Source: Lunularia cruciata (lineage: Eukaryota > Streptophyta > Marchantiopsida > Lunulariales > Lunulariaceae). Taken from it: a DNA stretch of 64,000 nt. Position numbers and translations under genes: made by a program. Within the stretch, counting starts at the first letter, position 1, and each line of letters starts with the position of its first letter. The DNA lies in contig OX419755.1 in assembly GCA_948567375.1 (NCBI GenBank), positions 78,634,218 to 78,698,217 on the forward strand, in the 5' to 3' direction. Below the pieces are notes generated by a model that was not told the origin of the DNA, ran no database searches, and saw only the letters and a list, made by a program, of their open reading frames with translations. Shown here one piece after another: positions 10,665 through 64,000 of this stretch.

Positions 10665-11510
10665 ATGGTTGATTGGATAGTTCAGGAGTTTGTGAATGTA
10701 TTTTTGGATGATCTGCCAAAGGGATTACCCTTTGATCGAGATATGCCCTTCAAGATTGAGGTATTGCCAAGGAGTACTCTAGTAAGTAGACCAATCTATC
10801 AGCTCTCACCAAAGGAGTTAGAGCAATTGAAAACAACACTTACAGAGTTGTTGGAGAAGGACTTCATACAACATAGTACCTCTCCTTGGGGAGCACCGGT
10901 ATTATTTGTTCCAAAGAAGGATGGAGGACTTTGTTTTTGTATTGATTACCATGGGCTCAATAAGCCAACCGTGAAGAATACATATCCCTTGCCTTGAATC
11001 GATGACTTGGTTGATCAACTAAGTGGAGCACGCTACTTTTCCAAGTTGGAACTTTGCAGCAGCTATTGGCAAATTCCTATTGATAGAGAGGATGTGCAAA
11101 AGACTACCTTTTGTACAAGGTATGGGCATTTTGAGTGGAGAGTTCTACCTTTTGGACTCACTAATGCTCCAGCAATCTTCATCAGTCAAATGCATTGGGT
11201 ATTGGATGGACTATTGGATTGGTCTGTGGTGGTGTTCTTGGATGACATCTTAATTTATAGTAAGACAGAGGCAGAACACATAAATCATGTGCAAGAAGTC
11301 CTAAGACAATTACGACAATGGAAATTTTATTGCAAGAAGTCGAAGTGTGCCTTTTGGCAGAAGGAGGTTACCTTCTTGGGTCATAAGATCTCATCAGAGG
11401 GGATCAAGATGGAAGAAGAGAAAATCAAGGCCATTACTGATCGGCCTACCCCAAAAGATGCTCCAAAAGCACGGGCATTCAGTGGATTGGCCAGTTTTTA
11501 CATGAAGAGT
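10665..11510 (+). pseudogene. Decayed reverse transcriptase, chromovirus A
   Basis: Ty3/gypsy reverse transcriptase. Visible in one frame are [67 protein letters not shown] and the catalytic FLDD (11235-11246), then TFLGHKISSEGI. A single TGA at 10995-10997 interrupts the frame where the family has Arg (CGA-to-TGA); the first catalytic Asp in SKLDL is Glu here. The frame then jumps, at about 11500, from the post-RT linker straight to the end of RNase H because about 420 bp is deleted. Enzymatically dead. Confidence 0.88.
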
Positions 11511-11606
11511 CAACATCATCAATGGGAGGAACAACTCCAACTATATGACATCAAACTTGAGTACAAACCAGGTTGGTTCCATGTCATCCCTAATGCTTTA
11601 TCATGA
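11503..11606 (+). pseudogene. RNase H remnant, chromovirus A
   Basis: Only the C-terminal end survives (QHHQWEEQLQLYDIKLEYKP, then ALS). All catalytic residues of RNase H, present in B between about 19660 and 20080, are deleted. Confidence 0.8.
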
Positions 11607-15500: not shown

Positions 15501-16455
15501 ATGACGTTAGTGAGAAGAGCATGTCTATTCCAAGAAAGGCTTTATTTCTACACTACGGTCTAGTAGTTTAGAATTCTGTGAGTATTGTGTACTAAGGAAG
15601 CAACATCAAACTACTTTTGGTGTTGGAACTTATAGTTCCAAAAGGATTCTTGATTATATACATAGTGACGTGTGGTGCCCATCCTCCTACTCCTTCATAG
15701 TCTGGAAATATGTACTATGTATCTTTCATCAATGATTATTTAAGGTTTGTATGGATTTACTTTATGCGTCAGAAGTCTGAGGTCTTTGTCACTTTCAAGA
15801 AGTGGAAAGTGCAAGTTGAGACTCAGATTGGTAAGAAAGTGAGATTTTTGCACTCAAATAATGGGGGAGGAGGGATACACTTCTAGAGAATTTGAGGTGT
15901 ATTGTCAACAAGAGGGGATAACTTGCCATCTCACTGTAGTATATATTCCACAGTAGAATGGTGTTGTTGAGTGGCTCAATCAAACACTATTGGAGCAAAT
16001 GAGGAGAATGTTGAGCTAATCAGGTTTATCACATGCATTTTGGGCTGAAGCTTTCAACATTGCAGCTTATTTAGTAAATCTTTCCCCTTCCATTGTGATT
16101 CATTACATGACACCGTTTAAGAGGCAAAGACTGCCTACACATTACAATCATTTGGTAGTCATTGGATGTAATGCTTATCCTCTCATACCCAAGGAAAGTA
16201 GATCTAAGCTAGATTGTACTTCCAAGAAATGTGTTCTTCTTGGCTACCAAAGTGGTGTGAAGGGTTACAGGTTGTGGGATCCCCTCACCTATAAATTGAT
16301 TGTCAATAGAGATGTTTTATTCAATGAGTCTAGATCATTGATCTAGGAGGAGAAAGCTCAGACTACTCATATTGACAAGGGAAAATCTCCTCTAAATATT
16401 GTTGAGGAGGAGATTAATTATGCTGGTTTTCATGACAAGGCACAAGGAGGTGCTC
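15500..16455 (+). pseudogene. Decayed copia integrase (element F)
   Basis: Copia integrase core: HSDVWGPSS (first Asp, about 15660), NDYLRFVWIYFMRQKSEV, HSNNGG where the second catalytic Asp has become Asn (about 15855), and NGVVEWLNQTLLEQMRRML with the catalytic Glu (about 15958-16015). FWAEAFNIAAYLVN and the C-terminal YQSGVKGYRLWDP follow. Several frameshifts and stops are present. The reading stops at GGTGCT where element C inserted and resumes at 31961. Confidence 0.8.
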
Positions 16456-16902
16456 TGTCACGCCATTTGTAGTGTTGCATCTAGATGCTTGGACACTGGA
16501 GTTCTAGTGATAGTAGTTAGAATTATTTCAGCAGTTTCTCAAAGACTACTTTCCGACGGTCAGATTTTATGTTTGGGTATTGACTTCACAGTAGGGCCCA
16601 CCGTCACTTTGCACCATTTGCACCGTCGAGTGTACCATCAACGGGACTGTTAGGGTTCAGACCTAGCTCGAGTCTAGGGGGTATACTTTCAAAGTGCAGC
16701 TCCAGAGAGCTCACTTCTTTGATGTTGAGCCTTTGAGTTCTTGGCTATGGTGGACAGAGGCCGGCGAGCGTCACCTGGATTCTCTATGCTTGAGTGGGTG
16801 TGGCTTGACTGTAGTCAGTGCCCATTTGTTGGCAGTTATAGAGTGACAGATCAAGTACTGATCTGAATTGAGTTGAGTTGAGAGTGGTAAACAATCTAAT
16901 AA
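16456..16902 (+). repeat. 5' terminal repeat A1 of element C
   Basis: 447 bp from TGTCACGCCATTTG to CTAATAA. Aligns along its length with A2 (31406-31854) and, reversed, with 63609-64000 and 42999-43529. It is followed directly by CATCAGAGAAGTGAAGTC, also found after the A repeat of D. Confidence 0.88.
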
Positions 16903-17592
16903 CATCAGAGAAGTGAAGTCAAAGGGAAATTGGGTGCATGAACTTTGAGTGTTGGTGGTATCTCCAAGCTCGGTGGATCATTGGTAGCTTGATTCAAGTT
17001 CAGCTTTTCCATAGTGTGCAAAAGCGCTGGCCAAATTTTGAGCAAAGAAGGAGCAAATTTCAAGCAGTGGTTGTGATTTTGAACTCAGGAGGTGAAAGTG
17101 GGACCAATTTGTTGCGAGTTGGGCTCAAAAAATCAAATTGAAGGTGGAGTTGGGAAGCTATTCTCATGACTTTATGATTTGGAGAAACTTGTGTTGTCAA
17201 TTTGGCTTGAGTGGAAAGTTAGTGGGGGATTTGGCGGTCAGCCAACTTTAGGGTTTATGTCATATTTTACATCAGATTTTAGCTTCATTTTACGTCATAT
17301 TTTGGCCAGATTTGGAGGATTTTTGCTAGTTCGGAGGACTTTTGTAGATTTGGAGAAGTTTGCCAATTTTGGAGGAGGTTTGAAGTGGCAAGAAGAAAGG
17401 CCTCATTTGGCTGAATTTTGGTATTTCAAGGCTTCAAGGCATAGGGCTGTGGGCTATGAAGGCCTAGAAGGGCCAGCAAGCCAACGTGAGGCTAGCTAGT
17501 TTAGAGTAGATCTTGGTCATTGGTTGGCAAAATCTGCCTTTCTTGCTAGATTGTGCACAACAAGGTTTGACTCCTAGATCTCTTGTTCCTAG
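16903..17592 (+). other. Leader of element C (5' part)
   Basis: Untranslated leader between A1 and the site where chromovirus B inserted. It is mirrored by 62860-63608 in D. A tRNA primer site is not clear; TAACATCAGAG at 16900 only loosely resembles the iMet site. Frames here (16938-17499) show no domain. Confidence 0.6.
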
Positions 17593-18001
17593 TGTAAAAG
17601 ACCAAAACCGAGGAGAGAAATAGGAGAATGGAAACTCACATTGGGGCACTTGAATGAGGGAAAACTCCGAATGCCTAGCATGAGCTTCGGCTTTGGTATT
17701 TATAGGTAGCATACAAGACTCATGAAGCTTCTCAAGAAGCTTCCTTGAGCCGCTTTCTTGGAGTGCAAGCCAAGTTAACCAAGAAGCTTCTCAAGAAGCT
17801 TCCTTCTAAAAGCCGCCTACTTGGAGTGCAAGCTAAGCTAGTTAGAAGCTTCTAGAAGCTACCTACTTAGGGTGCAAGTTAACTAGTTGGGAAGCTTCCC
17901 AAGAAGCTTCTTAGATACTTCTAGAATATTCTAGGCTATTTTGTCTTATTCTCTACTTCGTAAACCCGACTAACTTTGTCGCTAAACTCCATATTGTTAC
18001 A
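17593..18001 (-). repeat. 3' LTR of chromovirus B
   Basis: 409 bp, TG...CA on both strands (TGTAAAAGACC ... ATTGTTACA on plus). Carries GAAGCTTCTAGAA at 17845-17857, a three-unit heat-shock-like element, and TATTTATA (TATA box reversed) near 17696-17703. Confidence 0.93.
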
Positions 18002-18235
18002 TATTCCCCCGCCGCTAGTTGGTGACGTCCTCGTCGCCAGTGAAGCTTTGAATTCCTTGATGGCCATCTGTGCATTTTGGAGGTAGGAAAGAGGTTCCCA
18101 TGTGGCATCATGAAAGGGATACCCTTTCTAAAGGACCTTGTACTTCGTATGTTGGTGAAGGCCTTGTTGAATATGACGACGCGCAAGGATAAGATCAACT
18201 TTGTACTCCTCATGATCATTGATAGGGACAAGCAA
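18002..18235 (-). pseudogene. Chromodomain of chromovirus B
   Basis: Minus-strand reading shows KVDLILARRHIQQG, a YKVL*KGYPFHDATWEP segment with the conserved T-W-E-P, and LQNAQMAIKEFKASLATRTS up to the end of the polyprotein. One stop replaces the Trp of W-K-G-Y (TGG-to-TAG). The chromodomain is expected to bind methylated H3 and target heterochromatin. Confidence 0.85.
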
Positions 18236-19570
18236 AGGAGGAGGTTGGACTCAAGAGGAAAAGGAAGAGGGGTTAGGAACAAAGGGTTTCAACTTGGAAA
18301 CATGAAAGACATGATGGATATGCATGTGACAAGGCAAGGCAAGTCGATAAGCAACAGGAGAGACAATGTGGGTGATATCAAAGGGTCCTATCCAATTAGG
18401 AGCAAGTTTACAAACTTGGGTATCAAGTAGGAGAAGGAGGTTACTAGAGGATAGCATGACTTTATTGCCAACTTCAAAGGTGAGATCACGATGATGGTGG
18501 TCCGCATATTGTTTTTTGGCAATTCTGAGCAACAAGGACGTGAGACTTGGCTTGTTGGAGAGATTGGGGTATAGTGGTCAAGAATGTGGAAGTATGAGGA
18601 ACCTGAGAGGGAGGGGGAGCAAGAAGCGAAACTGGAACAAGCAGATCTTGGCCAAAATTGAGAAAGAAGGGAGAAAATCCGGTGCTTGCCTGTTTGGAAT
18701 TGTTGTAGGCAAATTCTGCAGCTGCAAGACATTCATCCCAGTTGGTATGGTGGACATTGACAAAGGCCCGCAACATATCCTCCAATGTATGATTTGCACG
18801 TTCAGTTTGTCCATCAGTTTGAGGATGATAGGCCGTGGACAAAGTAAGCTTGGTGCCGAGTATCTAGAAGAGTGCTTGCTAAAACTTCCCAGTAAATTGA
18901 GGATCATGGTCACAAATGAGTACACGTGGCATCCTATGATGCTTGAAGACATTGTCGAAGTAGATTTGCGCTAAGGTTGGAGCATCCATGGTATCACAGG
19001 TTGGTGCCAAGTAGATTTACTTACTAAGCTTATCCACAAACACCACGATTGCGGTGTGTCCTTGTTTTGTCTTTGGCAAGGATGTGATGAGATCCAAGCT
19101 CACATGCTCCCAGCAAGCGGATGGAATGGCAAGCGATTTGAAGGAGTCCACTCGGCTTCTGATTATTGGCCTTGTTACATAAGCAGCTCTCACACAATAT
19201 GACAAATTCTCGAACATCTTGTGTCATGTTGGGCCACCACCATTGACATTGGAGGGTACCCAAGGTCTTGTCCATACCCATGTGACCAGCGATGGGTAAA
19301 TCATGGGCTTCTTGAAGGCGCACAAGTCGAAGATCACCTTTGGCTGGAACATAAATCCGGCCCGCATGGAATAGAAGGCCTTCCTTGAAGGAGAAGGTGT
19401 TGTACTCTTTGTCACCTGATGTTAGACAACCTTGTACCATTTGGAAGAAGGGATCTTGTTGGAGAGCTAACCAAAACTCATTATGGATCTTGGGATCAAT
19501 TGACACCGTCGTAATTGCTACCGCAATGAGAGGAAGAGACTTCAAATCAGGTTGTCGTGACAGAGCATCA
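18236..19570 (-). pseudogene. Integrase of chromovirus B (frameshifted)
   Basis: Reads HDLPIAGHMGMDKTLGTL and then CESCLCNKANNQKPSG (HHCC zinc region), in the same frame as RNase H. After a frame change come HVSLDLITSLPKTKQGHTAI (first Asp), ICDHDPQFTGKF (second Asp) and AYHPQTDGQTERANHTLEDM (Glu). All three acidic residues are present. The core is broken by a frameshift near 19070 and several stops (for example KLSK*IHLAP and GKF*QALF). The C-terminal part leads through NFGQDLLVP and HHRDLTFEVGNKVML into the chromodomain. This copy gives the uninterrupted view of the stretch that solo LTR Y splits in A. Confidence 0.87.
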
Positions 19571-20080
19571 GGGATGACATGGAACCAACCTGGTTTGTAC
19601 TCAAGTTTGATGTCAAACAATTGGAGTTTCTCTTCCCATCGATGATGTTGACTCTTCATGTGCTCTAGGTGTAAGGTCTGCAACAATGACTTGTGATCAG
19701 TTTGCATGATCACTTGTTTCCCCAAGAGATAATGCCTCCATACCTTGGTGGCATATACCAGTGCAAGTTGTTCCCGATCTCGAGTAGAGTAATTTATTTC
19801 AGCTGTATTTAGTTGGTGAGACACAAAGGCAATGGGATGTAGTCCATCTGGAAATTCTTGTTGCAACATAGCTCCAATTGCAAAGTTAGAAGCATCAAAA
19901 TCAACCATACAAGGTAGTTGAGGATCATATGGTTGAAGAATGGGTCTCAAAGACACCATATTTTTCAAATTTTGGAATGCTTCTTCATGTTTGGTGTTCC
20001 ATTGGAAGCTCAAGTTATTTCCCAAGAGGTTAGTCAATGTTGCAGCCACATGAGCATAATAGTGGATGAATCACCGGTAA
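19571..20080 (-). pseudogene. RNase H domain of chromovirus B
   Basis: RNase H degrades the RNA strand of the cDNA hybrid. Within the 20049-19030 frame are CMVDFDASNFAIGAMLQQ (first Asp), YSTRDREQLALVYATKVWRH (Glu), IMQTDHKSLLQ (Asp) and EYKPGWFHVIPDALSR. The frame itself is open here, so the domain looks intact, but the polyprotein around it is broken on both sides. Confidence 0.85.
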
Positions 20081-20967
20081 AACTAGCAAATCCATTGAAT
20101 GCCCGTACTTCTGTAGCATCCTTTGGGGTAGGCCAATCAGTAATGGCCTTGATCTTCTCTTCTTCCATCTTGATCCCCTCTGATGAGATCTTATGACCCA
20201 AGAAGGTAACCTCCTTTTGCCAAAAAGCACACTTCGACTTCTTACAGTAAAATTTCCATTGTCATAGTCGTCTTAGGACCTCTTGCACATGATTCATGTG
20301 TTTAGCCTCTGTCTTGCTATAGATTAAGATACATCCAAGAATACCACCATTGACCGATCCAATAGTCCATCCAACACCCGATGCATCTGATCCATGAAGA
20401 TTGCTGGAGCATTAGTGAGTCCGAAAGGTAGAACTCTCCACTCAAAATGCCCATACCTTGTGCAAAAGGTAGTCTTTTGCACATCCTCTCTATCAATCGG
20501 AATTTGCCAATAGCCGCTATGAAGATCCAACTTGGAAAAGTAACATGCTCCACTTAGTTGATCAAGTAAGTCATCGATACGAGGCAAGGGATATGCATTC
20601 TTCATGGTTTGCTTATTGAGCCCACAATAATCAATACAAAATCAAAGTACTCCATCCTTCTTTGGAACATATAGTATCGATACACTCCCCAAGGAGAGGT
20701 ACTATGTTGTATGAAGTCCTTCTCCAACAACTCTATAAGTGTTGTTTGCAACTCCTCCAACTCCTTTGGTGAGAGCCGATAGATCGGTCTTCTCATTGGA
20801 GTACTCCTTGGCAATAACTCGATCTTGAAGGGCATACCTCGATCAGAGGGTAATCCCTTTGGCAGATCATCCAAAAACACGTCCGCAAACTCCTTAACTA
20901 TCCGATCAACCATTACTTGATGAGGCTCTTGGTCCTCCACAAATTGGTCTTGTGTAATCGGCTTGAT
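20081..20967 (-). pseudogene. Reverse transcriptase of chromovirus B
   Basis: Two main frames: 20940-20602 (PKGLPSDRGMPFKIELLP, PIYRLSPKELEELQTT) and 20605-20324 ([16 protein letters not shown] with the first catalytic Asp, [12 protein letters not shown], then VVFLD). A frameshift sits near 20330, where the family FLDD motif is expected, so the catalytic centre is damaged here. Another disruption near 20660 affects the P-K-K-D-G segment. The C-terminal part (TFLGHKISSEGIKMEEE) is visible near 20150-20215. Confidence 0.86.
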
Positions 20968-21629
20968 CTACACCGCAAATACAGACTTATCTTCCTCCAA
21001 AGCTTGCTCTATGGCTGCTTTACTAACAAACTTCCCTTCTAGGGACTCATCTCTCTTCCAAACTTGCTCCATAGTTGCCTTCTTGGCAAACTTCCCATCT
21101 TGGGACTCCACTTCCTTCAAGGTTTGCTCTATGGCTACCTTCTCAACAAACTTCCCATCTTGGGCCTGACTATTCTTAGGTGTCTTACTCAGAGGTGCCA
21201 GACAACCTAATCGGAAATTCCTACCTTGGTGTTGTACTTGAATTTGGCGTCGGGTCCAATCAAATTGAACCTTATGACATTCAAGCCAAGGTAGACCCAG
21301 AATGATATCATAGTGTAGAGGTGCCACTATAAACCTCATACACTCCAAATACTCCTTCCCAATCTTGAAGGTAATAGGATGCGAGGTGCGGAATGCAGAA
21401 CCCTTTCTACCATCCGCCATCATCAAACTACTTCCAATTACTGACTTGATAGGAATACCCAATTCCTTTGCTACTTGCATAGACATGCAATTCTCTGAAC
21501 TTCCAGAATCAACCAAAATTCTACAACCTCGATTAGATATCATACCTTGCAAGTGAAGCAGACTTGCATAGGTCGAGCCTTCAATCCCATTAGAACTAAT
21601 CAAGCTCCCAATAGGTGGCTCAAAATCTC
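20968..21629 (-). pseudogene. Aspartic protease region of chromovirus B
   Basis: The 211-codon frame starting at 21603 has ILVDSGSSENCMSMQVAKEL (Asp-Ser-Gly active site) and LGLPWLECHKVQFDWTRRQI. It then has an unusual Lys/Glu/Ser-rich tail made of about three imperfect repeats of roughly 20 residues (DGKFVEKVAIEQ, DGKFAKKATMEQ, EGKFVSKAAIEQ), probably a spacer before reverse transcriptase. Element A lacks this tail. The pol frame overlaps the end of gag. Confidence 0.82.
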
Positions 21630-22535
21630 CTATTGGGATTCCTTGTTTCCCTGATCATTCCGCTCCACAACCTCCACTTGGGCAACTTGTCGAGGTCGTC
21701 CATTCTTGAGTGGACATTCAGCAATGCAATGCCCCAATTGGCGAAAATAGAAACAACTACCATTTTGTCGCAATTTCTCTCTGTCCACCATGCTCAGTGG
21801 TCTTTGTTGAATTGCATCAATCTCCATTGGTGCTGGCTCCTCCACTTGTGTGTAGTGTATTGGTAGGCTTTGTGGAGGTCAAGGTCGAGACCAAGTTGTT
21901 GCCACCAAGGAATCAAAACGTTTGGCCAACCGCATGGCTTCCTCCAAGTGTTGTGGCTCTTGCATGGTTACCTCTAATTTGGTTCTTGCCTTCAAGCCCC
22001 TCACAAATTGATCCAGAGCTTCACCTTCCAGAATATTTGGGATCTGCATGACGGTGTTTTGGAACTGCGAGATGTAACTTCTTACAAAGCCAATATGTTT
22101 CAACTCTGCCAACTTATCCCGTGCAGCCTGTATGGCATTTATAGCTTGGAACCGACTGATTATTGCGCTCTTGAATTTCGCTCATGTCAAGATCGGTGCA
22201 ACCATTTGTCGTTCGGCTCGCTCCACTCAAAATCTCCACCATAGCTTTGCTACTCCATCCAATTGGCTAGAAGCCAAGAGAATCTGTTTTTGCTCATCTT
22301 GTAGATTGGTAGCTTCAAAATAACGTTCAAAATCAAACACAAAATTCTCCACTGCACCCGGGAGATTCTTGCCTTCAAATACCTTGGGTTTAGGGAATTG
22401 AATGAGATCTTCTCCATCTTGAACTGGCGCTCTATCTATCTGTTCTTGTCGTTGTTGGTCTTATTCATCCAACAATCGAGTAAGATGCTCGATTTGTTGT
22501 TGCATTGCAAGGATAACATCCGGTATTGCCGCCAT
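21630..22535 (-). pseudogene. gag: gag of chromovirus B
   Basis: Opens at ATG 22535 (MAAIPDVILAMQQQIEHL) and ends at TAG 21630 after GNKESQ, 302 codons with scattered stops. Capsid-type helices are followed by a nucleocapsid knuckle, CFYFRQLGHCIAEC, in which the second Cys has become Phe. Protease overlaps in another frame. An NCBI-style retrotransposon-gag core lies in the middle (ATNLQDEQKQ region, about 22260-22320). Confidence 0.82.
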
Positions 22536-22793
22536 TGCTTCTACTCTATTCCATTACCCTCAATTTATCTAGTTGATTAACACATAGATACAACACGTCC
22601 ACCGTTCTCCATAAGTTACCACCGGAAGTATCAACGGTTCCTCTAAGACAGTGATCATATGTAGAAAATCCTGCCCAAAGCGCGAGGTGATGAATTATGT
22701 GAAATGATGTTTTGGTAATATTTGGACATGAAAGTCCCAATGGTTTGGTGAAAGTGGATTTGGTGGTCCATAAATTCCATCCATCCCATTTTT

Positions 22794-22805
22794 GCTCTGA
22801 TACCA
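22794..22805 (-). other. Primer binding site (tRNA-iMet), chromovirus B
   Basis: The minus strand reads TGGTATCAGAGC next to the 5' LTR, identical to element A. Confidence 0.95.
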
Positions 22806-22806
22806 A

Positions 22807-23229
22807 TGTAAAAGACCAAAATTGAGGAGAGAAATAGGAGAATGGAAACTCACATTGGGACACTTGAATGAGAGAAAACTCCGAATGCCTAGCATGAGCT
22901 TTTGCTTTGGTATTTATAGGTAACATACAAGACTCATGAAGCTTCTCAAGAAGCTTCCTTGAGCCGCTTTCTTGGAGTGCAAGCCAAGTTAACCAAGAAG
23001 CTTCTCAAGAAGCTTCCTTCTAAAAGCCGCCTACTTGGAGTACAAGCTAAGCTAGTTAGAAGCTTCTAGAAGTTTCCTTCTAGAAGCTACCTGCTTAGGG
23101 TGCAAGTTAACTAGTTGGGAAGCTTCCCAAGAAGCTTCTTAGATACTTCTAGAATATTCTAGGCTATTTTGTCTTATTCTCTACTTCATAAACCTGACTA
23201 ACTTTGTCGCTAAACTCCATATTGTTACA
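22807..23229 (-). repeat. 5' LTR of chromovirus B
   Basis: 423 bp, nearly identical to 17593-18001. Has a denser heat-shock-like array at 23059-23085 (GAAGCTTCTAGAAGTTTC followed by TTCTAGAA) and the reversed TATA box near 22910-22917. Confidence 0.93.
23059..23085 (-). promoter_or_regulatory. Heat-shock-element-like array in chromovirus B 5' LTR
   Basis: Four alternating GAA/TTC units at 2-bp spacing, then a further TTC-TA-GAA pair. It lies upstream of the TATA box in the element's orientation. Confidence 0.6.
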
Positions 23230-23234
23230 CCTAG

Positions 23235-23833
23235 ACTGGTGCCCTAGCCAACTCGTCCACCCTCACTTGTTGTCCTAGTGATTGTGCCATTGTTATCTAC
23301 ACACCATATCCTAGCTTTTGGCTAGGAGAGGCAGTTTGATCCCATTCTTGGTGATCCTGGTAGCTTAGGACTTAGATACGAACGTCTCTTATGTCAAATG
23401 CCAAATGGTGGTAGAGTCACTCTTGTGTTGTGTTATGAGATGGAGGGTTTTTGTTTAGATTTCTTGTGATTGGACCCCCTCCATTCTCTGCTTCCTATTT
23501 GTGCACCACATTTGTGTGAGGTGTCCTGACTTTTGAGCGTTGGTGCTCTGGTGTGCTCTCGGTGGTGAGGCTGGAGTGATGACCAGTCAAACTACCTTTG
23601 TTTCTCTCCGGTGAGGTAGGAAGTGATGACCTGCAGACCGTGAGAGTGCGTGTTATGATGGTAGGTTACAAGTTGCACTTTCCCCTGATGTAGTTATCTC
23701 GGTTAGAGTTACATTAGTGGGTGGTGCTTAGTTGGTATTGGCCCTTGGTGGTGTTGGCACTTGGTGGGGTACTTGCGGTTGCAACTGGCAGTTACAATTG
23801 GTGGTTCTGGTTTGTTGTTGCGGTTACTTTGTC
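23235..23833 (+). other. Leader of element C (3' part)
   Basis: Continuation of the C leader after chromovirus B. The reverse complement of D at about 62270-62855 matches it throughout. No coding frame with a recognised domain. Confidence 0.6.
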
Positions 23834-25990
23834 ATGACAGAGTTCTTTGGAGATTCTAGAGGAGTTAGCCCTATAGTACGCAGTGGGTTTACTCGGAGTG
23901 GTGCTCGGTATCAGCCTGTATCTTAGGTCCCCGTGAAGGAGGAGATTGACTCTGAGTTGGAGTTCGACACAAGAGTTGATTCACTTGAGAGTGCACTTGG
24001 TGTGTCCGCACCGTTGTTGTGGGACATGGACGAGATTTATGGGGCCTCCAAAGACCCTAGGCGTTACTTTGGTACATTGGGTACCATTGAGTTGGATGAC
24101 TTCATCTAGGAGTTTGATAGTTGATGTGATTTGCAGCAGATGCAAAACCTGACTTTGTTCACACCTTTCATGGCATGGAAGGGGTTGTTTCAGCATCTGG
24201 AGGGTCTGCCGATGGATGACTACTATGAGTTTAGGAAAGCTCATTTGGAGGAGATTGAGTTATGTAGACAATATTGGTCTCCACACTATGTCTCCATCAC
24301 TTCAGGCTTGATGGCTAAGAGTAGATCGATTGTACCTATGAGTTCTAGCTCAAGTAGTGTTGGTGGAGCTAGTGGAGTTGCACTAGCTGGAGATAGTGCT
24401 ACTACGAGTGGAGGTACCGCTACAGGAGGTAGTGTGGTACCAGGGTTTAACCCCATGGTGGAGTTTTCCTATGTTTGAGGTAGAACTACCAGGGAGTACG
24501 GACTGACAAGCTGAGGAGCTTGTAGGAGTTCCAACGGAAGGCTGGAGAGAGCCTACGTGAGCATACACTCGTATGAGGCGGCTGATCAGTTTCACTTAGG
24601 GAGTTACTGAGGCCCAGGCAGTCCAATTTTGGTATAGGATACTAGACAAGGATTTGTGATGTAGTGTTTGTGATGCTACATTGTTATAGGTTACTTTGCC
24701 TACTTTGGCAGTGGTCTTTGGTTTGGTTGATCGTATTGAGCTCAACATGGTAGAAGAGAGGGTAGTGACATCTGGATTTGGTAGGAGACCTCATCCACAG
24801 TTGTGACTTCTTCTAGAGTGCATTAGAGTGCACCATGCCTAGTTGGTTTTTGAGGACAAGGTGGACAGCCCAGATCCTATGGAGCAAGTGGAGGGCCTAG
24901 TGGAGTTAGACCCTTACCTTCATTTTCGGGTCAGCGGCAGCCAGTGAGTGGTGGTGTTGCTTGTTGGACTTGTGGTGGACCTCACCATCATAGAGAGTGT
25001 ACTCAAGGCAGTGGACCTGATACCTCGGTTGCATCATAGCCAACACAGAGGCAGTGTGAGCATTACCACAGATTTGGTCACTCTAGTGACCGGTGTTTTG
25101 ACCTACACCCAGAGTTACGGAGTGGTAGGGATGCTATGGTAGGTAGTAGAGGAGCTTCAGTTCATGGAGGACGAGGTGGTAGAGGTGGTGGTAGAGGATC
25201 TACACCTAGTAGGGGTGCAGTACATGCCCTTACTTTTGATACAACTATGGCTACTCGGATTGAGCAGTTGGAGCAGAGATTGGCTAGTATGGCTATTGCT
25301 CAGAGGAGATCAGATTTGGGTGTTGAGGCTTCCACCTCATATACTGGTGATAGAGATGCTTTGGATTTCATGTGCGGAGCAGCACAAGTGGATGCATCTA
25401 CAGCAGTGACTAGGAGTGCAGTACGTGCTCTAGAGCCTAGAGAAGCATCAGTGGAGTTGGACCTACAGAGAAGAGAGGTCGAGAGATAGGTCAGACATCC
25501 CCAGTCTTTCATGCTATTTGAGGCATTGTAGACGACATCCATGGTTCCTAGATATCCTAGTGCTGGTGTGGTAGGTGGTGATGGAGTGCATGATGGACTA
25601 CCTGCTAGTCAGCCACTTACTACTACATAGACTGAGTCTAGCATGATGTTGGGGGCGGCTCAGCTGATTATGCGGCGTCCTTTGTTCTAGGCCAATGATA
25701 TGTTTACATTGGGAGTTGACCCAACCCCAATATTCCGGTTGGCTGCCACACTGTGTGAGAGTAGGGATGGTGCGGTTCTTACTACTAGGGCAGAGGTGGT
25801 TGATAGTGGAGCTGACTTGGTTGAGGAGCATGGGATTCATTTAGCGACTAGTGGTTTATGGCAAACAACAATAGCTAGACTGGAAGAGTTGCCAGCTAGA
25901 CTAGCCTTTGAGAGAGCACAGTTCACACCTGGTGTTGTCCTATTGGATAACCAGAGGGAGATTTTCCGTTTGGTGGGACCTTCAAGGAAG
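23834..25990 (+). pseudogene. gag: Decayed gag of element C
   Basis: Opens with MTEFFGDSRGVSP and continues in one frame, broken by stops, into protease. Visible: a capsid-like region with PFMAWKGLFQHLEGLPMDD and EFRKAHLEEIEL (24150-24260), a Ser/Gly/Thr-rich linker, and two nucleocapsid knuckles: CWTCGGPHHHREC (about 24961-24999) and CEHYHRFGHSSDRC (about 25057-25098). The second Cys of the second knuckle became Tyr; D keeps it as CEHCHRFGHISDRC. A Gly/Arg-rich RGG-like stretch (about 25145-25200) and a coiled EQLEQRLASMA segment follow. It would form the particle and bind RNA. Confidence 0.8.
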
Positions 25991-26400
25991 GTCTATACAC
26001 CATAGAGAGTCTTGTTAGACTCTGGTGCGCAGCCCCTTATGTTGGGGAAGGCTGCAGTTGTCAGTCTGGAGTTACGGAAGACCGATGTGGAGAGGTGTCT
26101 ATTTCAGATCTAGACATCTTTAGGTGGTGGTTTGACACCGTACATCACACGTGGGGAGCTTGTTGTCCAGCTTCAGCCTGGTCATCCGACTGATAGCTTG
26201 GTGGTGAGAGCTCAGGCTATTGCAACAATAGTTGAGTCATATGATGTGCTAGTTGGGGGAGCAATGTTATACCCCATGGGTTTCAACATTGACTATTGGG
26301 AGGAGACAACCTCTTATAGACCTGGTTGGTAGTCCGGTGAGGGACGAGTATGTCGCCTACTAGTACGCTTTAGTAGTGGCAGTCTTGGCTCACTACAATC
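25991..26400 (+). pseudogene. Aspartic protease of element C
   Basis: VLLDSGAQPLMLGKAAVVSL carries the Asp-Ser-Gly active site (GAC at 26018-26020). The flap and C-terminal part follow in VRAQAIATIVESYDVLVGGA and YPMGFNIDYW. It is in frame with gag upstream and the methyltransferase downstream, so all three were translated as one chain. Stops at 26003-26005, about 26114 and about 26330 disable this copy. Confidence 0.82.
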
Positions 26401-27720
26401 CGGGACCATGGCAACATTAGTTTTAGCTTTCAGTGGTGCAGTTACTTGGCCTGGTGACTCGTTGGAGGGGAACGCCCATGCAAAGGATACTCTAGTACCA
26501 GAGGAGATCACTCGGCTTTGGAGTACAAGTGGGATTGTTCTATCCACCTTGGATGTTCCATTGTGGAGTTCCAAGGAGGTATTGCAGCAACATGCAGATC
26601 AGTTGGTGCAACATGCTTGGAGTGGAGCCTTTGTACCATCAGGAGATGCATGTGAGGATGAGCCTCTAGAGGCAATTGCTTTGACACCTTTGGATACTAC
26701 ACTTATCGCTTGGCAGTATCCAGTAGAGGGGATATGTCTATTGGAGTTGTTTGGTGGGATCAGCACCAGACTAACTATGGTGTTATAGGCGGGTATACAA
26801 TTACAGAGGTACTTGTATGTAGAGAGAGATGAGACTGCTAGGCAAGTCTCTCTACATCATGTGGCACACTTGGCCTATCGATATCCGGAGTTATTACCGA
26901 TGTCAGCAGTCAGAGGTTACTAGAAGGCCCTATCAATAGACATTTCCTTACTGGGAGTGCATGACCTAAAGAGACATGGGCCTATTCACTTGGTAATTTT
27001 TGGATGGCCATGTTAGGGACATACACGTGTTGGTAGAGGATTGGGTCTTCAGGATCCTTGTTTTGGTGTGTTTTGGGAGATGTTACGGATACTACGACAT
27101 CTCCATGTTCATCGGTCTATTTCTCCAACTTACCTTTTGGAGAACGTTCCTTTGATGGGTGATTCATGCACCAGAGTGGTGGCAAGTACACATCAGGTCC
27201 ATTCTTGGATGGGACCTGTTGTATTGTTAAATGCAGCCAGAGTGGGATCACGGGCTTATCGTCTTCGTCTTTGGTGGACGAACCTCTTACCCAAAGAGGT
27301 TTTACAACGTGCTTATGACGAGATTCAACAACTTGACCACATCCTTGTTGATGACATCTTGAATGTTGGGCGTCAGTCTCAGACAGTGGTAGTGGCTAAT
27401 AGGTCACCTATGGCAGTGGTGAACCTAGTTGGACAGCCTAGAGCTGCATTTCCCACACTCATGAGTTTCCCAGGCTCTCATGCTTTTCGAGAAGGAGGAC
27501 CTGGACTTGTTTGGGACTCACAGTTACAGTAGTTGGTGGAGCCCAATGCTGATGAGAGAGAGAGCGGGTGATGGGTTTTCACACCGGTATTACTGCTGTT
27601 CCAGCAGTGTCAGAGGCATCCAGGAGTCATGTGTTAGGTCAGGCTATAGACTTGAACTGTTTGCCTGGATTATGAGCCTTGGCTTGGTAGAGCAGCGTAG
27701 GATGCACTTGATAGGCATCA
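26401..27720 (+). pseudogene. C5 cytosine DNA methyltransferase domain (DNMT3/DRM-like) inside gypsy element C
   Basis: Would transfer a methyl group from S-adenosylmethionine to cytosine in DNA. One frame contains motif I LLELFGGIS (26738-26764), YLYVERDETARQVSLHH, the catalytic loop HLVIFGWPC with Pro-Cys (Cys codon 27011-27013) then GHT and GLGLQDPCFGVFWEMLRIL, motif VI YLLENVP (Glu-Asn-Val 27140-27148), a RVGSRAYRLRLWWTNL segment matching the Arg-x-Arg motif VIII area, and a C-terminal ERER..GF and LGQAIDLNCL-like motif X. TAG stops at 26786, 26921, 27014 and 27530 and a GA dinucleotide expansion near 27555 kill it. It sits between protease and reverse transcriptase in their frame, so it is a captured domain, not a neighbouring gene. 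The order of motifs and the Glu-Asn-Val and Trp-Thr-Asn features point to DNMT3/DRM over Dcm or DNMT1. Confidence 0.88.
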
Positions 27721-28089
27721 CCAGTTGGACACTTGTGAGCCCTGTGTTTATCAAGACGATTCAGGCATATGCTGGGGGTGATGGACTGAGTGGACATGGT
27801 ATTTGTGGGACACATCCAATAGCTTCTAGGGAGAGTGGTCTACTTGGAATCCATCCAGGTGAGCGTGGGCTACTTGGATTACACCCTTGGTCCACATGGG
27901 ATGCAGCTAGAGAACGTGTGGAGCTTGCAGCCAGAGTGGAAGGAGTTTTTCACACAAAGGTTGGGACCTCTAGTGGCTCAGGAGCATGACACTATTGCTC
28001 CCGAGGGCCCAATGTAGCAGCCAGTCAGTACGTCTTCCACTTCTATGATAGTTATGGAGGATACTTGGGAGCCAGATCTTAGACCCAAG
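27721..28089 (+). other. Linker between methyltransferase and reverse transcriptase, element C
   Basis: Low-complexity coding remnant with repeated LLGIHPGERGLLGLHPW-like units (27836-27896). No domain recognised. D retains the same segment up to its break at 58165. Confidence 0.5.
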
Positions 28090-28890
28090 CTTACTGGAGA
28101 GGAAAGACAAAGGGTTTGAAGGTTCTTGAGGAGTCACACGAGTTGTTTTGCCTTCAATATGAAGGATTTGGGTGCTTTGAAGGGACCTGGTATACGGATT
28201 GAGCTGACTAGCAATACACCAGTTTTCCGACGTCCTTATTGCTATAGTGACATGGAGAGGACATTGATTCAGAGCCAAAGAAGTGACCTTTTTGAGGCTG
28301 GTTTGTTGGAGATTTTACATGGAGAGTATGCATCAACAACAATGATGCCAGCCAAGAAGGATATGCATGGCAACTATACAAATAAGTGGATGTGTGGAGA
28401 TTACCGTCCTATCAACCGACAGACCATGGCTGATTAGTATGCCATGCCTACACCAAAGGAGATTTTTGATGCATTTGGGCATGCAAAGGTCTTCGGTACT
28501 TTGGATCTTTGAGTGGGATATCATCAATTGCCGATCAGAGAGGAGGATAAGTCCAAGATAGCATTTTGGGCTATTGATCCTCACGGCAAGGATGTGTTAT
28601 ATCAGTGGAGGTTCTTACCATTTGGGTTAAAGAACGCTCTTGCTGAGTTCCAGAGGGTCATGGATAGGATCCTAGTTGGATTGGATTTTGCTCAGTGTTA
28701 TATTGATGACATTTTGGTTTATAGCACTATTGTGGAAGAGCATGAGAGATAGTTGTTGGAGGTGTTTGAGAGGTTGAGATCTCATGGACTCAAATTACAT
28801 CTTGGGAAGTGTAGGTTCTTCCATGAGCAGGTTGAGTATTTGGGTCACACTATCTACCCCGGAAGACTTGGTGTTTAGCAGACCAAGGTG
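28090..28890 (+). pseudogene. Reverse transcriptase of element C
   Basis: Ty3/gypsy reverse transcriptase: CGDYRPINRQT, GTLDL then VGYHQLPIREEDKSKIAF, WRFLPFGLKNALAEFQRVM and the catalytic YIDD (28699-28710), then QVEYLGHTI. Stops at 28435, 28510, 28750 and 28876 lie in an otherwise continuous frame. The first is TAG, and the 28510 TGA sits where the family has Ser/Arg. After correcting for the upstream GA expansion the frame is that of the methyltransferase, which supports a PR-DNMT-RT fusion polyprotein. Confidence 0.88.
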
Positions 28891-29515
28891 GAGGCTATTG
28901 CACGTATTCCTTGGCCTACGGATATGAGCAGAGTGCGAGCATTCCTTGGGTTGGTGAACTTCTATCGCCGCTATGTTAGAGAATTTAGTGCCATTGCCAA
29001 GGCCTTGACAAAGCTGACCAAGCTTACACAGGAGTGGTGTTGGGGAGATGAGCAGGAGAGAGCTTTTGTAGAGCTCAAGGAGAGGTTGACATTTGCTCCT
29101 ATTTTGAGGAGACAGATTAGAAGACGACCATTTCAGACCCATACTGATTGGAGTATGTTGGGGCTTGGAGCGGTGCTCACCCAACATGATGATGAGGGGA
29201 AGGAGTTTGTGGTGGCCTATGCTAGTCGCTCCAACAATTCAACAGAAGCAAAGTATAGTTTATATGAGGGAGAGTGCTTGGCAGCAGTTTGGGCAGTAGC
29301 ACATTTCCAATGTTACCTATTTGGTAACCCCTTCACTCTCATCACTAATCATCAGCCACTAAAGTGGTTGATGGAGTCCGACAAGCTTTCAAGGAAGCTT
29401 GCACGATGGGCTCTGATTTTATAGGAGTATGATTTCACGGTTGTTCACAAGCCTGGAGTGGTGAACCGTGATGCAGATGGGTTGAGTAGAAACCCATGTC
29501 CCAGCTAGTAGGATC
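28891..29515 (+). pseudogene. RNase H of element C
   Basis: Continues in the reverse transcriptase frame: FLGLVNFYRRYVREFSAIAK connection, FQTHTDWSMLGLGAVLTQHD (first Asp), SLYEGECLAAVWAVAHFQCY (Glu), then FTLITNHQPLKWL where the usual Asp has become Asn (GAT-to-AAT). It ends in VVHKPGVVNRDADGLSRNP. One TAG (29422-29424) and a frameshift just downstream separate it from integrase. Confidence 0.87.
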
Positions 29516-30740
29516 AGACCGGAGCATTTGGCATGGTGAGACAGATGAGGAGATGGTGCCAGGTTGGCATGCATCGGCCTTTCTGTGTATATTTTTAGAG
29601 GCTTTGGTAGTATCTTCTCATTGCATACAAGAGGAGTTATTGAGGTCACAAATCCAGAGAGTGAAGATATTGGTACAATTCAGCGAGACATTCATGATGA
29701 TGTCTTAGTGATGGACTATCTTCACACTGGTATTGTGGGTGGCACAATTGGGGCCAAGGAGAAAGACCGTGTTCTTCAGCAAGCCAGACGGTTTAGATTG
29801 GAGGGCAGACACCTTTTGCATGTATGGGAGGATGGTAGAGTGCGAGTAGTACCACTTCCAGCACAAAGACCACAGTTGGTCCGTCATGCTCATGAGGAGC
29901 TAGGACATTTTGGAGTAAAGCGTACATATAGCTTACTCCAGAGTCATTATTGGTGGCACGGTATGCAGACCGAGGTACAGCAGTTTGTTGCCAGATGTGT
30001 GGTTTGTGACCAAGTTAGAGCATCATTCAATGCTCCTATGCCACAATTACACCCATTACCTATCATGGGATTGGGTAAGCATTGGAGTTTGGACTTTGCT
30101 AGACCTTTACTGCAAACTATGAGACATCATTGGTATGTTTTGGTGATGGTGGAGCACTTCTCCAAGTGGATTGAGTTGGTGGCAGTTCCTGACAAGTCTA
30201 ATGAAGGGACAACTTACTTGTTCATGGATCGAGTTCTTAGTCATTTTGGTGCACCAGTTGAGGTTTTGACTGATCAGGGTACAAATTTCTTGGGAGAGTT
30301 TCAGGTCTTGTGTGACAAGGCTTTGATTGATCCTTGTACTACATCTCGAGATCACCCTAAGGCAGATGGCTTAGTAGAGAGAGTGGTTCAGACGGTGAAG
30401 AGAGGATTGCAAAAGTCTGGTTTGCAGAGAGGCCACTTGGGAGATTGGGATCTCCAGTTACCTTGGTTGGCCATGGGCTATCGGTTCAGCCGGCAAGCCT
30501 CCTTAATATCCTTCTCTCCGTACTTTCTACTCTATGGATGAGATCTAGATTTTCTTGCAGCCATTTGTTGAGATGCTACTATAGTTTTGGACTTGGATGA
30601 CCCCGATGTATGGATGAGTGCATGTTCTCAGCGGGTAGAGATCTTTTGGAGAGTGATGCCGATGGCCTTTGACAAATTGGTGATTGCTCAGCAGAGAGAT
30701 ACTTTATGCAATGCTAACATTTGAGGAGGAGGTTATAGAC
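29516..30740 (+). pseudogene. Integrase of element C
   Basis: The 325-codon open frame 29564-30541 holds the zinc region (HEELGHFGVKRTYSLL ... CVVCDQV), the core with all three acidic residues (WSLDF, LTDQGTNFLGEF, and Glu in ADGLVERVVQTVKRG) and LPWLAMGYRFSRQ. Catalytic residues are thus intact, although the frame no longer joins RNase H and ends at a TGA (30539-30541). A decayed C-terminal region follows to about 30740 and leads to the PHD finger where related chromoviruses have a chromodomain. Confidence 0.88.
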
Positions 30741-30987
30741 CCTCAATCCGTCGATTTCATCTAGGCGACTATGTATATCTACAACAGACAACACCAACGA
30801 CACTTGATGTTTTGATAGGCCGCACTATCTTGAGAGTGCGTGAGGTTTTCCATATGGAGTCCTTGTGTTGGAAGGACGTGATGGTGTTGTTTGGAAGGAT
30901 CATGTGCGCAATTGTGCGCCATGCCAACTCCCAAACATTGATGGTACTATGGACCCAAGCTTGGCACTTATACATGCAGGCTTGAGG
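30741..30987 (+). pseudogene. Integrase C-terminal spacer, element C
   Basis: Decayed coding DNA with short frames such as VREVFHMESLCWKDVMVL. It probably links the integrase to the PHD finger. G has a matching segment near 43930-44160. Confidence 0.5.
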
Positions 30988-31128
30988 TGTATGTTATGTG
31001 GCTCTTTTGGTGGAGCTACTACTATGTTAGTGTGTGATAGTTGTTCAAGAGGATGGCATATGGCATGTATGACTCCTCCCCTCATGGTGGTTCTTTAGGA
31101 ACAATGGTTATGTCCTAGATGTACTTGA
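30988..31128 (+). pseudogene. PHD finger downstream of integrase, element C
   Basis: A full C4HC3 zinc finger: Cys codons at 30988, 30997, 31033 and 31042, His at 31057, Cys at 31066, 31111 and 31120. This gives spacing C-x2-C-x11-C-x2-C-x4-H-x2-C-x14-C-x2-C. Hallmark segments are VCDSC, GWHMAC, PPL and WLCPRC. One TAG (31096-31098) breaks it just before the last Cys pair; the copy in G reads Gln nearby. A TGA (31126-31128) marks the polyprotein end. PHD fingers bind histone H3 tails by their Lys4 state, so the likely role is to tether the integration complex to chosen chromatin. It is not in the frame of the 29564-30541 integrase, because of decay. Confidence 0.87.
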
Positions 31129-31295
31129 CCTATAGCTAGTTCATTCTTTATATGGTATAGATTGCAGACAAGCGACTAACGATGGGGCTCCATAGCACCC
31201 GGCCTCTTGATCTTTACCATTATAGGGTATACTATATACGTAGAGTAGATGGCTATCTGAAGTTAGAGGGACCTAACCGCCAGCTAGGGGGGCAA
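31129..31295 (+). other. 3' untranslated region and polypurine tract, element C
   Basis: Short non-coding stretch ending in AGCTAGGGGGGCAA (31283-31295), the polypurine tract. It is conserved in G as the reverse complement near 43627-43640. Confidence 0.75.
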
Positions 31296-31404
31296 TTGTG
31301 GCACTTTAGAGTCTATGTATGACTTATGTGTGAGTTGTGCTTCTATAGTGTATGATGTTGACAGTAATGTATGTTGTGTAACGATATATATATACGCATG
31401 ACAA
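31296..31404 (+). repeat. Repeat B1 of element C
   Basis: A 109-bp unit, TTGTGGCACTTTAGAG ... GCATGACAA, directly after the polypurine tract. It matches B2 (31855-31960) and, reversed, both B units of G. No copy precedes or follows A1 at the 5' end. Confidence 0.85.
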
Positions 31405-31405
31405 T

Positions 31406-31854
31406 TGTCACACCATTTATAGTGTTGCATCTAGATGCTTGGACACTCGAGTTCTAGTGATAGAAGTTAGAGTTATTTCAGCAGTTTCTTAGAGACTACT
31501 TTATGGCGGTCAGATTTGGTGTTTGGGGTACTAACTTCACAGTGGGGCCCACCATTACTTTGCACCGTTTGCACTGTCAAGTGTGCCATCAGCGGGACCG
31601 TTAGGGTTCAGACCTAGCTCAAGTCTAGGGGGTATACTTTCAAAGTGCAGCTCCAGAGAGCTCACTTCTCTGATGTTGAGCCTTTGAGTTCTTGGCTATG
31701 GTGGACAGAGGCCGGTGAGCGTCACCTAGATTCTCTATGCTTGAGTGGGTGTGGCTTGACTGTAATCAATGCCCAGTTGTTGGCAGTTTATAGAGTGACA
31801 GATCAAGTACTGATCTGAGTTGAGTTGAGTTGAGAATGGTAAACAATCTGATTA
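31406..31854 (+). repeat. Repeat A2 of element C (3' LTR core)
   Basis: 449 bp, TGTCACACCATTTATAG ... CTGATTA; the counterpart of A1 (447 bp). Confidence 0.88.
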
Positions 31855-31960
31855 TTGTGTCACTTTAGAGTCTATGTATGAATTATGTGTGAGTTGTGCT
31901 TCTATAGTGTATGATGTTGACAGCAATGTATGTTGTGTAGCGATGTATATATGCACGACA
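31855..31960 (+). repeat. Repeat B2, 3' terminus of element C
   Basis: 106 bp, TTGTGTCACTTTAGAG ... GCACGACA, a second copy of B1. It ends exactly where copia F resumes with GCTACC. G ends at the same terminal CA (42904), so this is the family's true end. Confidence 0.82.
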
Positions 31961-33065
31961 GCTACCATAGAGGAAGAGCATGAAGAGATTGGTGAACCTT
32001 GACACATGCCAACACAAGAAGATCAAGCAGAGTCATCAACAAGGAGGATGTATGGATGCTCTATTTGTGCTCCTAAATGATTTGGAAAATGGGTTCATTC
32101 AACATAATTAGGAGATGAGGATATTTTTCTTGATGATGATGGTGGTATGGCCTTGATCTTGCAAGAAGGGAACCTTCTTCAAGCTTTGATGGACAAGCTT
32201 GAGTGGAATCTAGCATTGTAGCAATGTAGAGGGAGATGCAATCATTCTTTGACAACAAGACTTGGGAGTTAGTGAAGCTCCCAAAACATCAACAATTGGT
32301 GGACAATAAGTGGGTCTACAAATTGAAAGACAACCCTATTGATGGAGAAAAGAAGATCTACAAGGCCGAGTTGGTGGCCAAGAGATTCACATAAGAAAAA
32401 GGTATGGATGACAATGAGATTTACTCTCCTTTTGCTAAGTATGCCACTATTCACTTATTGTGTGTACTTGTGACTGTCTTTGGTCTTATCCTAGATCAAA
32501 TGGATGTTGTCATTGCTTTCCTTGATGGCAAGTTAGATGTGGTGATCTTTATGAGACAGCCTATGGGCTTTGCAAAGAAAAGCCAAGAGGATATAGTTTG
32601 TAGGTTGCTAAAATCCTTGTATGGATTGAAGCAAGCTCCTAGACAATGGAACAAACGGTTTGATGATTTCATGAGGTCACAAGGATTTAAATGGAGTGTG
32701 TTTGATCCTTGGGTATACATGAAATAGGCGAGTAATGAAGTCTTTGGCTTGATTATTCTGGTACTCTATGTGGATGACATGCTTATAACCTCTAGGAACA
32801 AATCTGATGTTGATAAGCTCAAAGCTCTCTTGAGTTCTAAGTTTAGAATGAAAGATCTTGGAACATCAAGGAGGATTTTGGAGATGGAGATCCAAAGAAA
32901 CTTGCAGGATGGGAAGCTATGGTTAACTCAAGGAAATTATGCTAGGAAGGTACTTTTGAGATTTAAAATTGAGAATTGCAAGGTTGTGAGTACTCCTTTA
33001 GCTCCTCACTTCAAGCTTTCATTAGCTCTTTGTCCAAAGGTTGATGTCCAAGATCCCCTATGACA
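31961..33065 (+). pseudogene. Decayed copia reverse transcriptase (element F)
   Basis: Resumes the F polyprotein with ATIEEEHEEIGEP. Reverse transcriptase follows: TWELVKLPKHQQLVDNKWVY, DQMDVVIAFLDGKLD (first Asp region), SLYGLKQAPRQWNKRFDDFM and the catalytic LYVDDML (about 32763-32783), then FRMKDLG. The frame is largely open from 32404 to 33063, with stops at 32725 and upstream. F is non-functional because gag and integrase are destroyed. Confidence 0.9.
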
Positions 33066-63608: not shown

Positions 63609-64000
63609 TAATCAGATCATTTGTAACTCTTGAATCAACTCAACTCAACTCTTATCACTACTTGATTTCTCACTCTATAAACTGCTAACAATTGAGCCTT
63701 GATTATAGTCAAGCCACACCCACTCTAGAAAAGAGAATCCAAGTGATGCTCACCGGCCTTTGTCCACTATAGTCAGGAACTCAAAGGCTCAACATCAAAG
63801 AAGTGAGCTCTTTGGAGATGCACTTCAAAAGTACACCCTTGGACTCGAGCTAGATCTAAAACCCTAATGGTCCCAATAATGGTACACTTGACGGTGAAAA
63901 CGGTGCAAAGTGATGGTGGGCACCACCATGAAGTCAATACCTTGAATACAAAATCTGACTGTTGGAAAGTAGTCTATGGGAAACTGCAAAAATACCTCTA
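63609..64000 (-). repeat. A repeat of element D (partial, cut by window end)
   Basis: Reverse complement of A1 of element C, ending (minus) in CTGATTA followed by CATCAAAGAAGTGAAGTC. This shows that the 5' repeat of a second copy is also not followed by a B unit. Confidence 0.82.

Follow-up and report, generated by a model that had tools for sequence, protein, structure and literature searches.

Transposons are normally the targets of DNA methylation, and hosts use DNA methyltransferases to silence them. Why should a retrotransposon carry such an enzyme of its own? The question is raised by a 64,000-nt stretch of DNA from Lunularia cruciata (contig OX419755.1, positions 78,634,218 to 78,698,217), here termed the window. 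It contains a Gypsy retrotransposon with a C5-methyltransferase (MTase) domain between its protease (PR) and its reverse transcriptase (RT). This observation, made in an initial annotation of the sequence, is confirmed as a whole, and the interpretation given with it is supported overall, with corrections to the enzyme class and to the layout of the reading frames. Most likely the element is a land-plant offshoot of an already known type, with an MTase that is predicted to methylate the element's own DNA.

In the window copy, every motif named in the annotation is found at its place in frame 1. The protease motif LLDSGAQ has its Asp at 26018, motif I (LLELFGGIS) begins at 26738, the Pro-Cys motif occupies 27008-27013 with the Cys codon at 27011-27013, and the Glu-Asn-Val (ENV) motif is at 27140-27148. 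The segment GSRAYRLRLWWTNL is also in frame 1, between ENV and a motif IX/X-like end that runs on in another frame, to ~27708. The window copy alone has DNMT3A as its top PDB match (E 5.4e-7). A match to the Pfam family PF00145 had been proposed as a check; the match is significant (E 7e-4) but with 19.5 bits remains below the curated gathering score of 22 bits. Relatives of the window domain number 56, at 54-75% identity (lowest E 4.9e-111), and the gathering score is passed by the relative P0081 with 35.6 bits.

The window copy is a decayed member of its family. Seven in-frame TAG codons are present within 25706-27562 (at 26003, 26111, 26330, 26786, 26921, 27014 and 27530), and the one at 27014 immediately follows the catalytic Cys codon; this copy therefore cannot make the enzyme. 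The RT frame is displaced from the MTase frame, as had been noted, and the net shift of +2 nt, measured against other genome copies, is right; it results from more than one indel and not from a single GA expansion.

The domain is a trait of the whole family and not of the window copy alone. The genome searched consists of 565,766,749 bases in 74 contigs, of which about 558 Mb is in eight contigs of 60-85 Mb; copy counts from the three probe searches that follow are lower bounds. With PF00145, the best 123 of 2161 candidates were scored, all over the cut-off and a few of them host genes. With P0001, a relative that has a whole MTase domain, the best 111 of 13,362 candidates were scored, and each matched almost the entire query at 72-74% identity. 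Among these 111, counts by eye gave 66 that are stop-free within the match and 8 stop-free matches with an open frame of exactly 1428 amino acids (aa), in a list that favours intact copies because only the best candidates were scored. A 1037-aa open frame is recurrent among the best 144 of 36,796 candidates scored with the integrase, window included. In addition, an exact 20-mer across the join of two repeats near the right end of the element (B1|A2, described below) occurs 596 times genome-wide (278 + 318 by strand; control 0).

Two sets of 20 loci were compared. The first, picked by MTase, consists of 20 of the top 25 PF00145 matches at full length (rows 3, 5-14, 16-19 and 21-25). Nineteen are elements with collinear MTase, RT, RNase H and integrase, and the remaining one, L009, matched no element probe. 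GAG is absent in L017 and L022 and represented by 36 residues in L010; PR is partial in all three. The order PR-RT-RNase H-integrase with an rve integrase is that of Ty3/Gypsy elements. A phage-integrase (tyrosine recombinase) match was not found in nine window pieces or in the seven relatives scanned, where rve and H2C2 were found. The second set was picked by integrase (the 20 best-scoring loci besides the window, rows 2-21), and 951 bases were read at the expected place of the MTase. The domain is there in 18 of the 20 copies and is stop-free in 4 of those 18; its absence from most genomic copies had been named in the annotation as a refutation, and this sample shows the opposite.

A chance resemblance, or a piece of host DNMT3 fallen into one Gypsy copy, might be suspected from the window copy, which is full of stops and below the Pfam gathering score. 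The likelihood of this is close to nil. The domain has the same place in the 18 other copies and in proteins of Marchantia and Riccia, the host DNMT3-like gene stands apart from the element rows in the tree given below, and both forms of the explanation are ruled out by the other genome copies.

The domain had been annotated as DNMT3/DRM-type. The first half of this label stands and the second does not. The motif order is I-IV-VI-VIII-IX/X, unrearranged, whereas DRM has motifs VI-X before I-V. A profile of the window and 24 of the 56 relatives (25 rows in all) finds DNMT3A at 4e-13 and DNMT3B at 3e-10; 4onj, which we take to be a DRM structure, is found at 3.9e-7 and DRM2-named entries at 1e-4, both only over the motif I-IV part. 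For the fold search, an AlphaFold model of the relative P0005 was used that has a mean predicted local distance difference test (pLDDT) score of 63, parts below 50 and a weak target-recognition part; an earlier model (mean pLDDT 48) had been dropped. The best 50 of 101 matches (E <=0.001) are all DNMT3A, DNMT3B or DNMT3C or their complexes. The domain is thus of DNMT3 type as judged by motif order, profile and modelled fold, and a DRM origin is rejected on the same three grounds. The host also has a DRM gene, L002, which displays the rearranged order and is separate from the element, and its DNMT3-like exons, L001 and L004, are separate exon pieces that are not in the element (translations read by eye).

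Cellular plant DNMT3 and DRM share the C5-methyltransferase core with the element, and DNMT3 has the same motif order. They differ in their separate exon pieces, in the rearrangement of DRM and in the DUF3444 domain that plant DNMT3 carries (PMC6453930). The part of that source consulted found no DNMT3 in angiosperms, and the DNMT3-like gene of the host thus argues against a flowering plant. No companion ADD, PWWP or DUF3444 domain was found in seven element relatives scanned (E 0.01). Among these seven, PF00145 is over its gathering score in P0081, P0083, P0094, P0099 and P0100; P0098 and P0101 are not listed.

The layout of the reading frames differs from that first proposed. A single UAG separates MTase from RT at one conserved position in 20 of 20 copies read (19 full loci and the window), and in the 19 full loci it is in the same frame as both. 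The gap from the end of the MTase probe to RT is 573 nt in 18 copies and 549 nt in L011, and other stops in the MTase-RT stretch occur only in single copies or two. Marchantia P0081 likewise is a Gag-PR-MTase protein that ends after the MTase domain. The proposed PR-DNMT-RT polyprotein is therefore correct as to the shared frame, yet this is not one uninterrupted open reading frame (ORF); the MTase closes a Gag-PR-MTase frame, and RT, RNase H and integrase follow the conserved UAG. Directly after the UAG, 18 of the 20 copies have CAGCCA (L017 and L019 differ), a context that fits the type I readthrough motif, given as UAG-CARYYA in the portion of PMC5382211 available. It is predicted from this context that the enzyme is made with Gag, and RT only via readthrough. 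A consensus RNA fold was obtained after the UAG, and 0 of its 43 pairs are changed on both sides in the 11 of 20 copies compared; no RNA structure is therefore proposed there.

The element is Gypsy by its domains, not by its repeat layout. The same long terminal repeat (LTR) is not present at both ends as in Ty3/Gypsy elements. The layout is A1-body-B1-A2-B2, the split direct repeats A-body-B-A-B of DIRS-type elements. The element starts with TGTC and finishes with GACA, and among the 13 copies whose two ends were read, 11 have an exact 4-bp target duplication. At the B1|A2 join, a 2-nt spacer separates GACA from TGTC in 19 of 19 matched copies (GC 14, GT 2, AT 2, AC 1), and GACA-GC-TGTC forms a palindrome in most. 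The A2|B2 join reads GATTA|TTGTGG in 15 of 18 copies, with small insertions in L013, L024 and L027; in two of the variant joins the added letters GA and CATCA can be traced, as one reading, to the polypurine side and to the stretch following A1, respectively. As L024 is concerned, this is the youngest of 14 copies by A1/A2 comparison (1 difference in 449), has no matching 4-bp duplication and has an A2|B2 join that is 5 nt longer.

In the window, an insertion of 5.6 kb lies between A1 and the body, and the B-A-B arrangement could be viewed as a stray solo LTR or a tandem insertion beside an ordinary LTR element. This is very improbable; it is refuted by other copies with ends read, which have the same A-body-B-A-B layout, TGTC...GACA ends and the exact duplications. 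Instead, complementary DNA (cDNA) with B-A repeats at both ends may close into a circle, body-B-A-B-A, and the integrase may open this circle at the palindromic B|A join, which would generate the A-body-B-A-B ends upon insertion.

What would the enzyme do for the element? We incline, by a little, to a Gag-level DNMT3-type enzyme that methylates the element's cDNA before integration. A captured DNMT3-type MTase ends the Gag-Protease-MTase frame of an abundant Gypsy family common to liverworts and Sphagnum, and the UAG with its readthrough context would gate RT-RNase H-integrase. The MTase would then be made in structural (Gag) amounts, be packed into the reverse-transcribing particle and methylate the element cDNA ahead of insertion by the integrase. 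Given cDNA methylated before insertion, new copies are proposed to arrive marked like host chromatin.

The domain displays signs of constraint. Median identities to Marchantia were taken over 20 loci from copies that cover 90% of a probe in one piece, with matches below 40% dropped; they are 70.6% for MTase (17 copies), 68.1% for RT (18), 81.4% for RNase H (17), 64.1% for Gag (14), 57.0% for PR (14) and 53.7% for the linker (18); the MTase and RT values are similar. In 29 distinct ungapped genome copies of the MTase, the motif PCQ is conserved in 27 and ENV in 26. Variants in at least four copies on each side are 13 nonsynonymous and 24 synonymous, and single-copy variants 90 and 50 (Fisher p 0.002).

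The PCQ and ENV residues bear on a second explanation, in which the domain has no catalytic role and serves as a binding module for nucleic acid or (methylated) chromatin that directs Gag assembly or integration, much as chromodomains guide other Gypsy elements. Its position at the end of the Gag-PR frame would suit a structural or nucleic-acid-binding role, the AlphaFold model has low confidence in its target-recognition part, and P0098 has Glu for Pro in the Pro-Cys motif. Pure binding, however, would not need the PCQ and ENV motifs, which are kept in nearly all genome copies and also in the aligned Marchantia and Calypogeia rows. We regard a non-catalytic role as unlikely.

Integrated copies also carry scars of methylation. 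Among 56 stop alleles in the 29 MTase copies, 53 are at sites whose most frequent other codon is CAG or CGA; 32 are TAG at CAG-commonest sites, and 21 of 23 TGA are at CGA-commonest sites. A1 and A2 of the window differ at 33 of 445 sites (7.4%), and in 14 copies the divergence ranges from 0.2% to 8.1%. Transitions account for 194 of the 218 A1/A2 differences in these copies. With the C state taken as older, 78 are in CG, 66 in CHG and 50 in CHH, where one repeat has 34, 56 and 135 C sites, respectively. The C-to-T decay pattern at CG and CHG indicates that integrated copies were methylated in both contexts.

The scars could also point to an active enzyme with identical chemistry but the contrary purpose of self-restraint, whereby new copies are methylated and silenced and the host load is kept low, a possibility raised in the accessible text of PMC5890265. 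Strong CG and CHG mutation scars would be expected from it, but the copy number is high, as the exact junction matches attest, and A1/A2 divergence extends down to the lowest value given above. Self-restraint appears improbable, to about the same degree as a non-catalytic domain.

Several observations weigh against methylation of the cDNA by the element's enzyme. Host DNMT3- and DRM-like genes are enough to account for the scars at CG and CHG, which are therefore no proof that the element's enzyme left them. The MTase is stop-free in only 7 of the 29 copies. The variant test is not significant, with few sites, for RNase H (1/3 versus 33/13, p 0.09) and for integrase (6/4 versus 51/20, p 0.47). 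Two of the 20 integrase-picked copies, L047 and L056, are without the MTase in the 951-base piece read, and other Gypsy pieces in the same window gave no match to the MTase probe. Two of the 13 copies with both ends read (L018 and L024) have no 4-bp duplication. The identity of 15 of 18 A2|B2 joins weakens the idea of a fresh ligation in each cycle, and a mixed set would fit better. Finally, SymbioLINE-Dnmt, another retrotransposon DNMT, is reported not to have methylated DNA in yeast (PMC5890265, text available in part).

The land-plant occurrence suspected at first is borne out by related proteins. Calypogeia fissa, Sphagnum troendelagicum, S. tenellum, S. jensenii, Marchantia polymorpha, M. 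paleacea and Riccia sorocarpa are named among the 56 relatives. A search for long related proteins gave 23, which are 14 M. polymorpha gene models, one from Sphagnum fallax, one from Closterium sp. NIES-53 and seven others. Marchantia P0045 joins protease and MTase, and Riccia P0041 joins MTase and RT, both collinear with the window; the collinear layout is also found in Sphagnum proteins. No protein named as from Klebsormidium nitens was among the relatives returned by either search, and no further relatives in viral contigs and genome contigs were confirmed.

In an MTase tree of 21 rows, 18 element rows are split from the three cellular rows (host DNMT3, host DRM and human DNMT3A) with support 100/100, and the bryophyte-type group has 99/97. 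With four long or short rows left out, the main split remains at 100/100 and the bryophyte group at 84/92, and inner branches are weak. The RT tree (18 rows, some short) groups the MTase-bearing elements at 83/84. The MTases of P0094-P0096, P0098-P0100 and P0101 share a clade with those of bryophytes, 100/100 (P0096 not in tree). In P0098 and P0100 the MTase is located behind RT-RNase H and not behind the protease. These trees fit one capture, with a later move in P0098 and P0100; the long branches forbid more. A broader scenario is rather doubtful but can be stated. A single Gypsy lineage would have captured a DNMT3 before the rise of land plants and retained it, in charophyte and bryophyte hosts, as a structural enzyme at Gag level before a readthrough stop; this enzyme would methylate a two-repeat circular cDNA, opened by the integrase at the B|A palindrome, and pre-methylated DNA would be delivered to the genome of the host.

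Within the MTase tree, Marchantia and Sphagnum element MTases join before those of the window species or of the liverwort Calypogeia, against host kinship (87/88, weak); old subfamilies or horizontal transfer could account for this. P0098 is a Gypsy polyprotein in the order RT-RNase H-MTase-integrase, with a PHD finger in addition and Glu-Cys in place of Pro-Cys. P0101, from Closterium sp. NIES-53, has a Copia RT joined to a Gag-PR-MTase-like part without the Pro-Cys and ENV stretches. The P0101 gene model is probably a fusion artefact, and its sequence hints at the MTase-Gypsy family in Zygnematophyceae.

The algal precedent mentioned in the annotation exists. According to the text available of de Mendoza et al. 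(2018, PMC5890265), KnitGypsy-Dnmt3 of the charophyte K. nitens is present in several copies under purifying selection and was acquired within the K. nitens lineage. By that description it resembles the present element in its Gypsy domains, in a captured, unrearranged Dnmt3-type domain and in DIRS-like repeats, for which no explanation is found in the text available. The hosts differ, bryophytes being among the named relatives here. The frames differ as well; the MTase is in the Pol polyprotein ORF there and closes the Gag-PR frame before the UAG here. SymbioDIRS-Dnmt3 of dinoflagellates is likewise a retrotransposon that combines A-body-B-A-B repeats with a Dnmt3 domain; the same source (PMC5890265) gives DIRS repeats as A-coding region-B-A-B and reports that the DNMT of this DIRS-type element is capable of de novo CG methylation. 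SymbioDIRS-Dnmt3 differs by a tyrosine recombinase, in place of the DDE-type integrase core and 4-bp target duplications found here. Gypsy-Dnmt3 elements are thus known from algae, and the Gag-PR-MTase frame end and the conserved UAG before RT are new here.

Such elements are stated to be absent from land plants in the part of PMC6338049 consulted. For bryophytes the data contradict this. Among these bryophytes is the model liverwort Marchantia polymorpha, from which members of the family are already public as hypothetical proteins (the 14 gene models among the 23 long relatives). No bryophyte element of this kind was found in the open-licence literature by title or abstract opening, and the available portions of PMC10952607, PMC5784723 and PMC9033089 make no mention of MTase-Gypsy elements. 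Five methyltransferases are given for Marchantia in the available text of PMC5784723; bryophyte methyltransferase counts may need revisiting. With the family present in Marchantia, a retrotransposon's gain from a DNA methyltransferase is testable in a genetic model plant, and two more mechanisms open to testing are offered by the UAG that precedes RT and by A-B-A-B ends flanked by target duplications.

Table 1. Features of the MTase-bearing Gypsy element, its insertion and the second family copy in the window
Feature	Position	Strand	Remarks
Target duplication, left half	16452-16455		GCTC; adjoins A1
Whole element	16456-31960	+	nested insertion at about 17593-23229
A1, left terminal repeat	16456-16900	+	begins TGTCACGCC; 7.4% diverged from A2
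5' untranslated part	16901-17592	+	interrupted by insertion after; from L027 and L013 aligned to window
Inserted sequence	17593-23229		parts of another Gypsy at 18486-21654 (-)
GAG	24026-24785	+	three pieces, 54-78% identity to Marchantia P0081
Aspartic protease region	25931-26554	+	with LLDSGAQ
DNMT3-type MTase domain	26714-27708	+	includes GSRAYRLRLWWTN; broken by TAG codons and frameshifts
UAG	28015-28017	+	between Gag-PR-MTase frame and RT; then CAGCCA
Reverse transcriptase	28159-29016	+	
RNase H	29059-29490	+	
Integrase	29744-30523	+	H2C2 and rve core
B1, inner copy of right repeat	31295-31404	+	adjoins G-rich tract read as polypurine tract
A2, inner copy of left repeat	31406-31854	+	
B2, right terminal repeat	31855-31960	+	ends GACA
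Right flank	31961-31964		GCTA; 3/4 letters match left flank GCTC
Second copy of the family	42904-64000	-	interrupted by other sequence; more diverged
Second copy, B/A-like repeats	42904-43606	-	
Second copy, integrase	44381-45880	-	
Second copy, RT/RNase H	46144-46734	-	
Second copy, MTase	58586-59447	-	
Second copy, PR	59613-60229	-	
Second copy, GAG	61292-62067	-	
Second copy, A-like repeat	63272-64000	-	

The MTase probe has two matches in the window, both in copies of the MTase-Gypsy family (Table 1). Host genes were not detected in the window; 0 Pfam families are above their own cut-off among 10 ORFs, and there is no Rfam match and no tRNA. Another Gypsy lineage, with closest relatives at 45-60% identity, is represented by the minus-strand pieces inside the studied element and by a piece at 10099-11606 (+). 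The nested Gypsy has an ORF with three 60-nt units in tandem at 20984-21167, about 75-78% similar to one another. Copia-like RT ORFs, judged from translation, are present at 32404-33063, shortly downstream of the element. The window as a whole has a CpG observed/expected ratio of 0.35, with 0.46 for CCG, 0.71 for CAG and 1.61 for CAA, and all of it looks worn by CG and CHG methylation.
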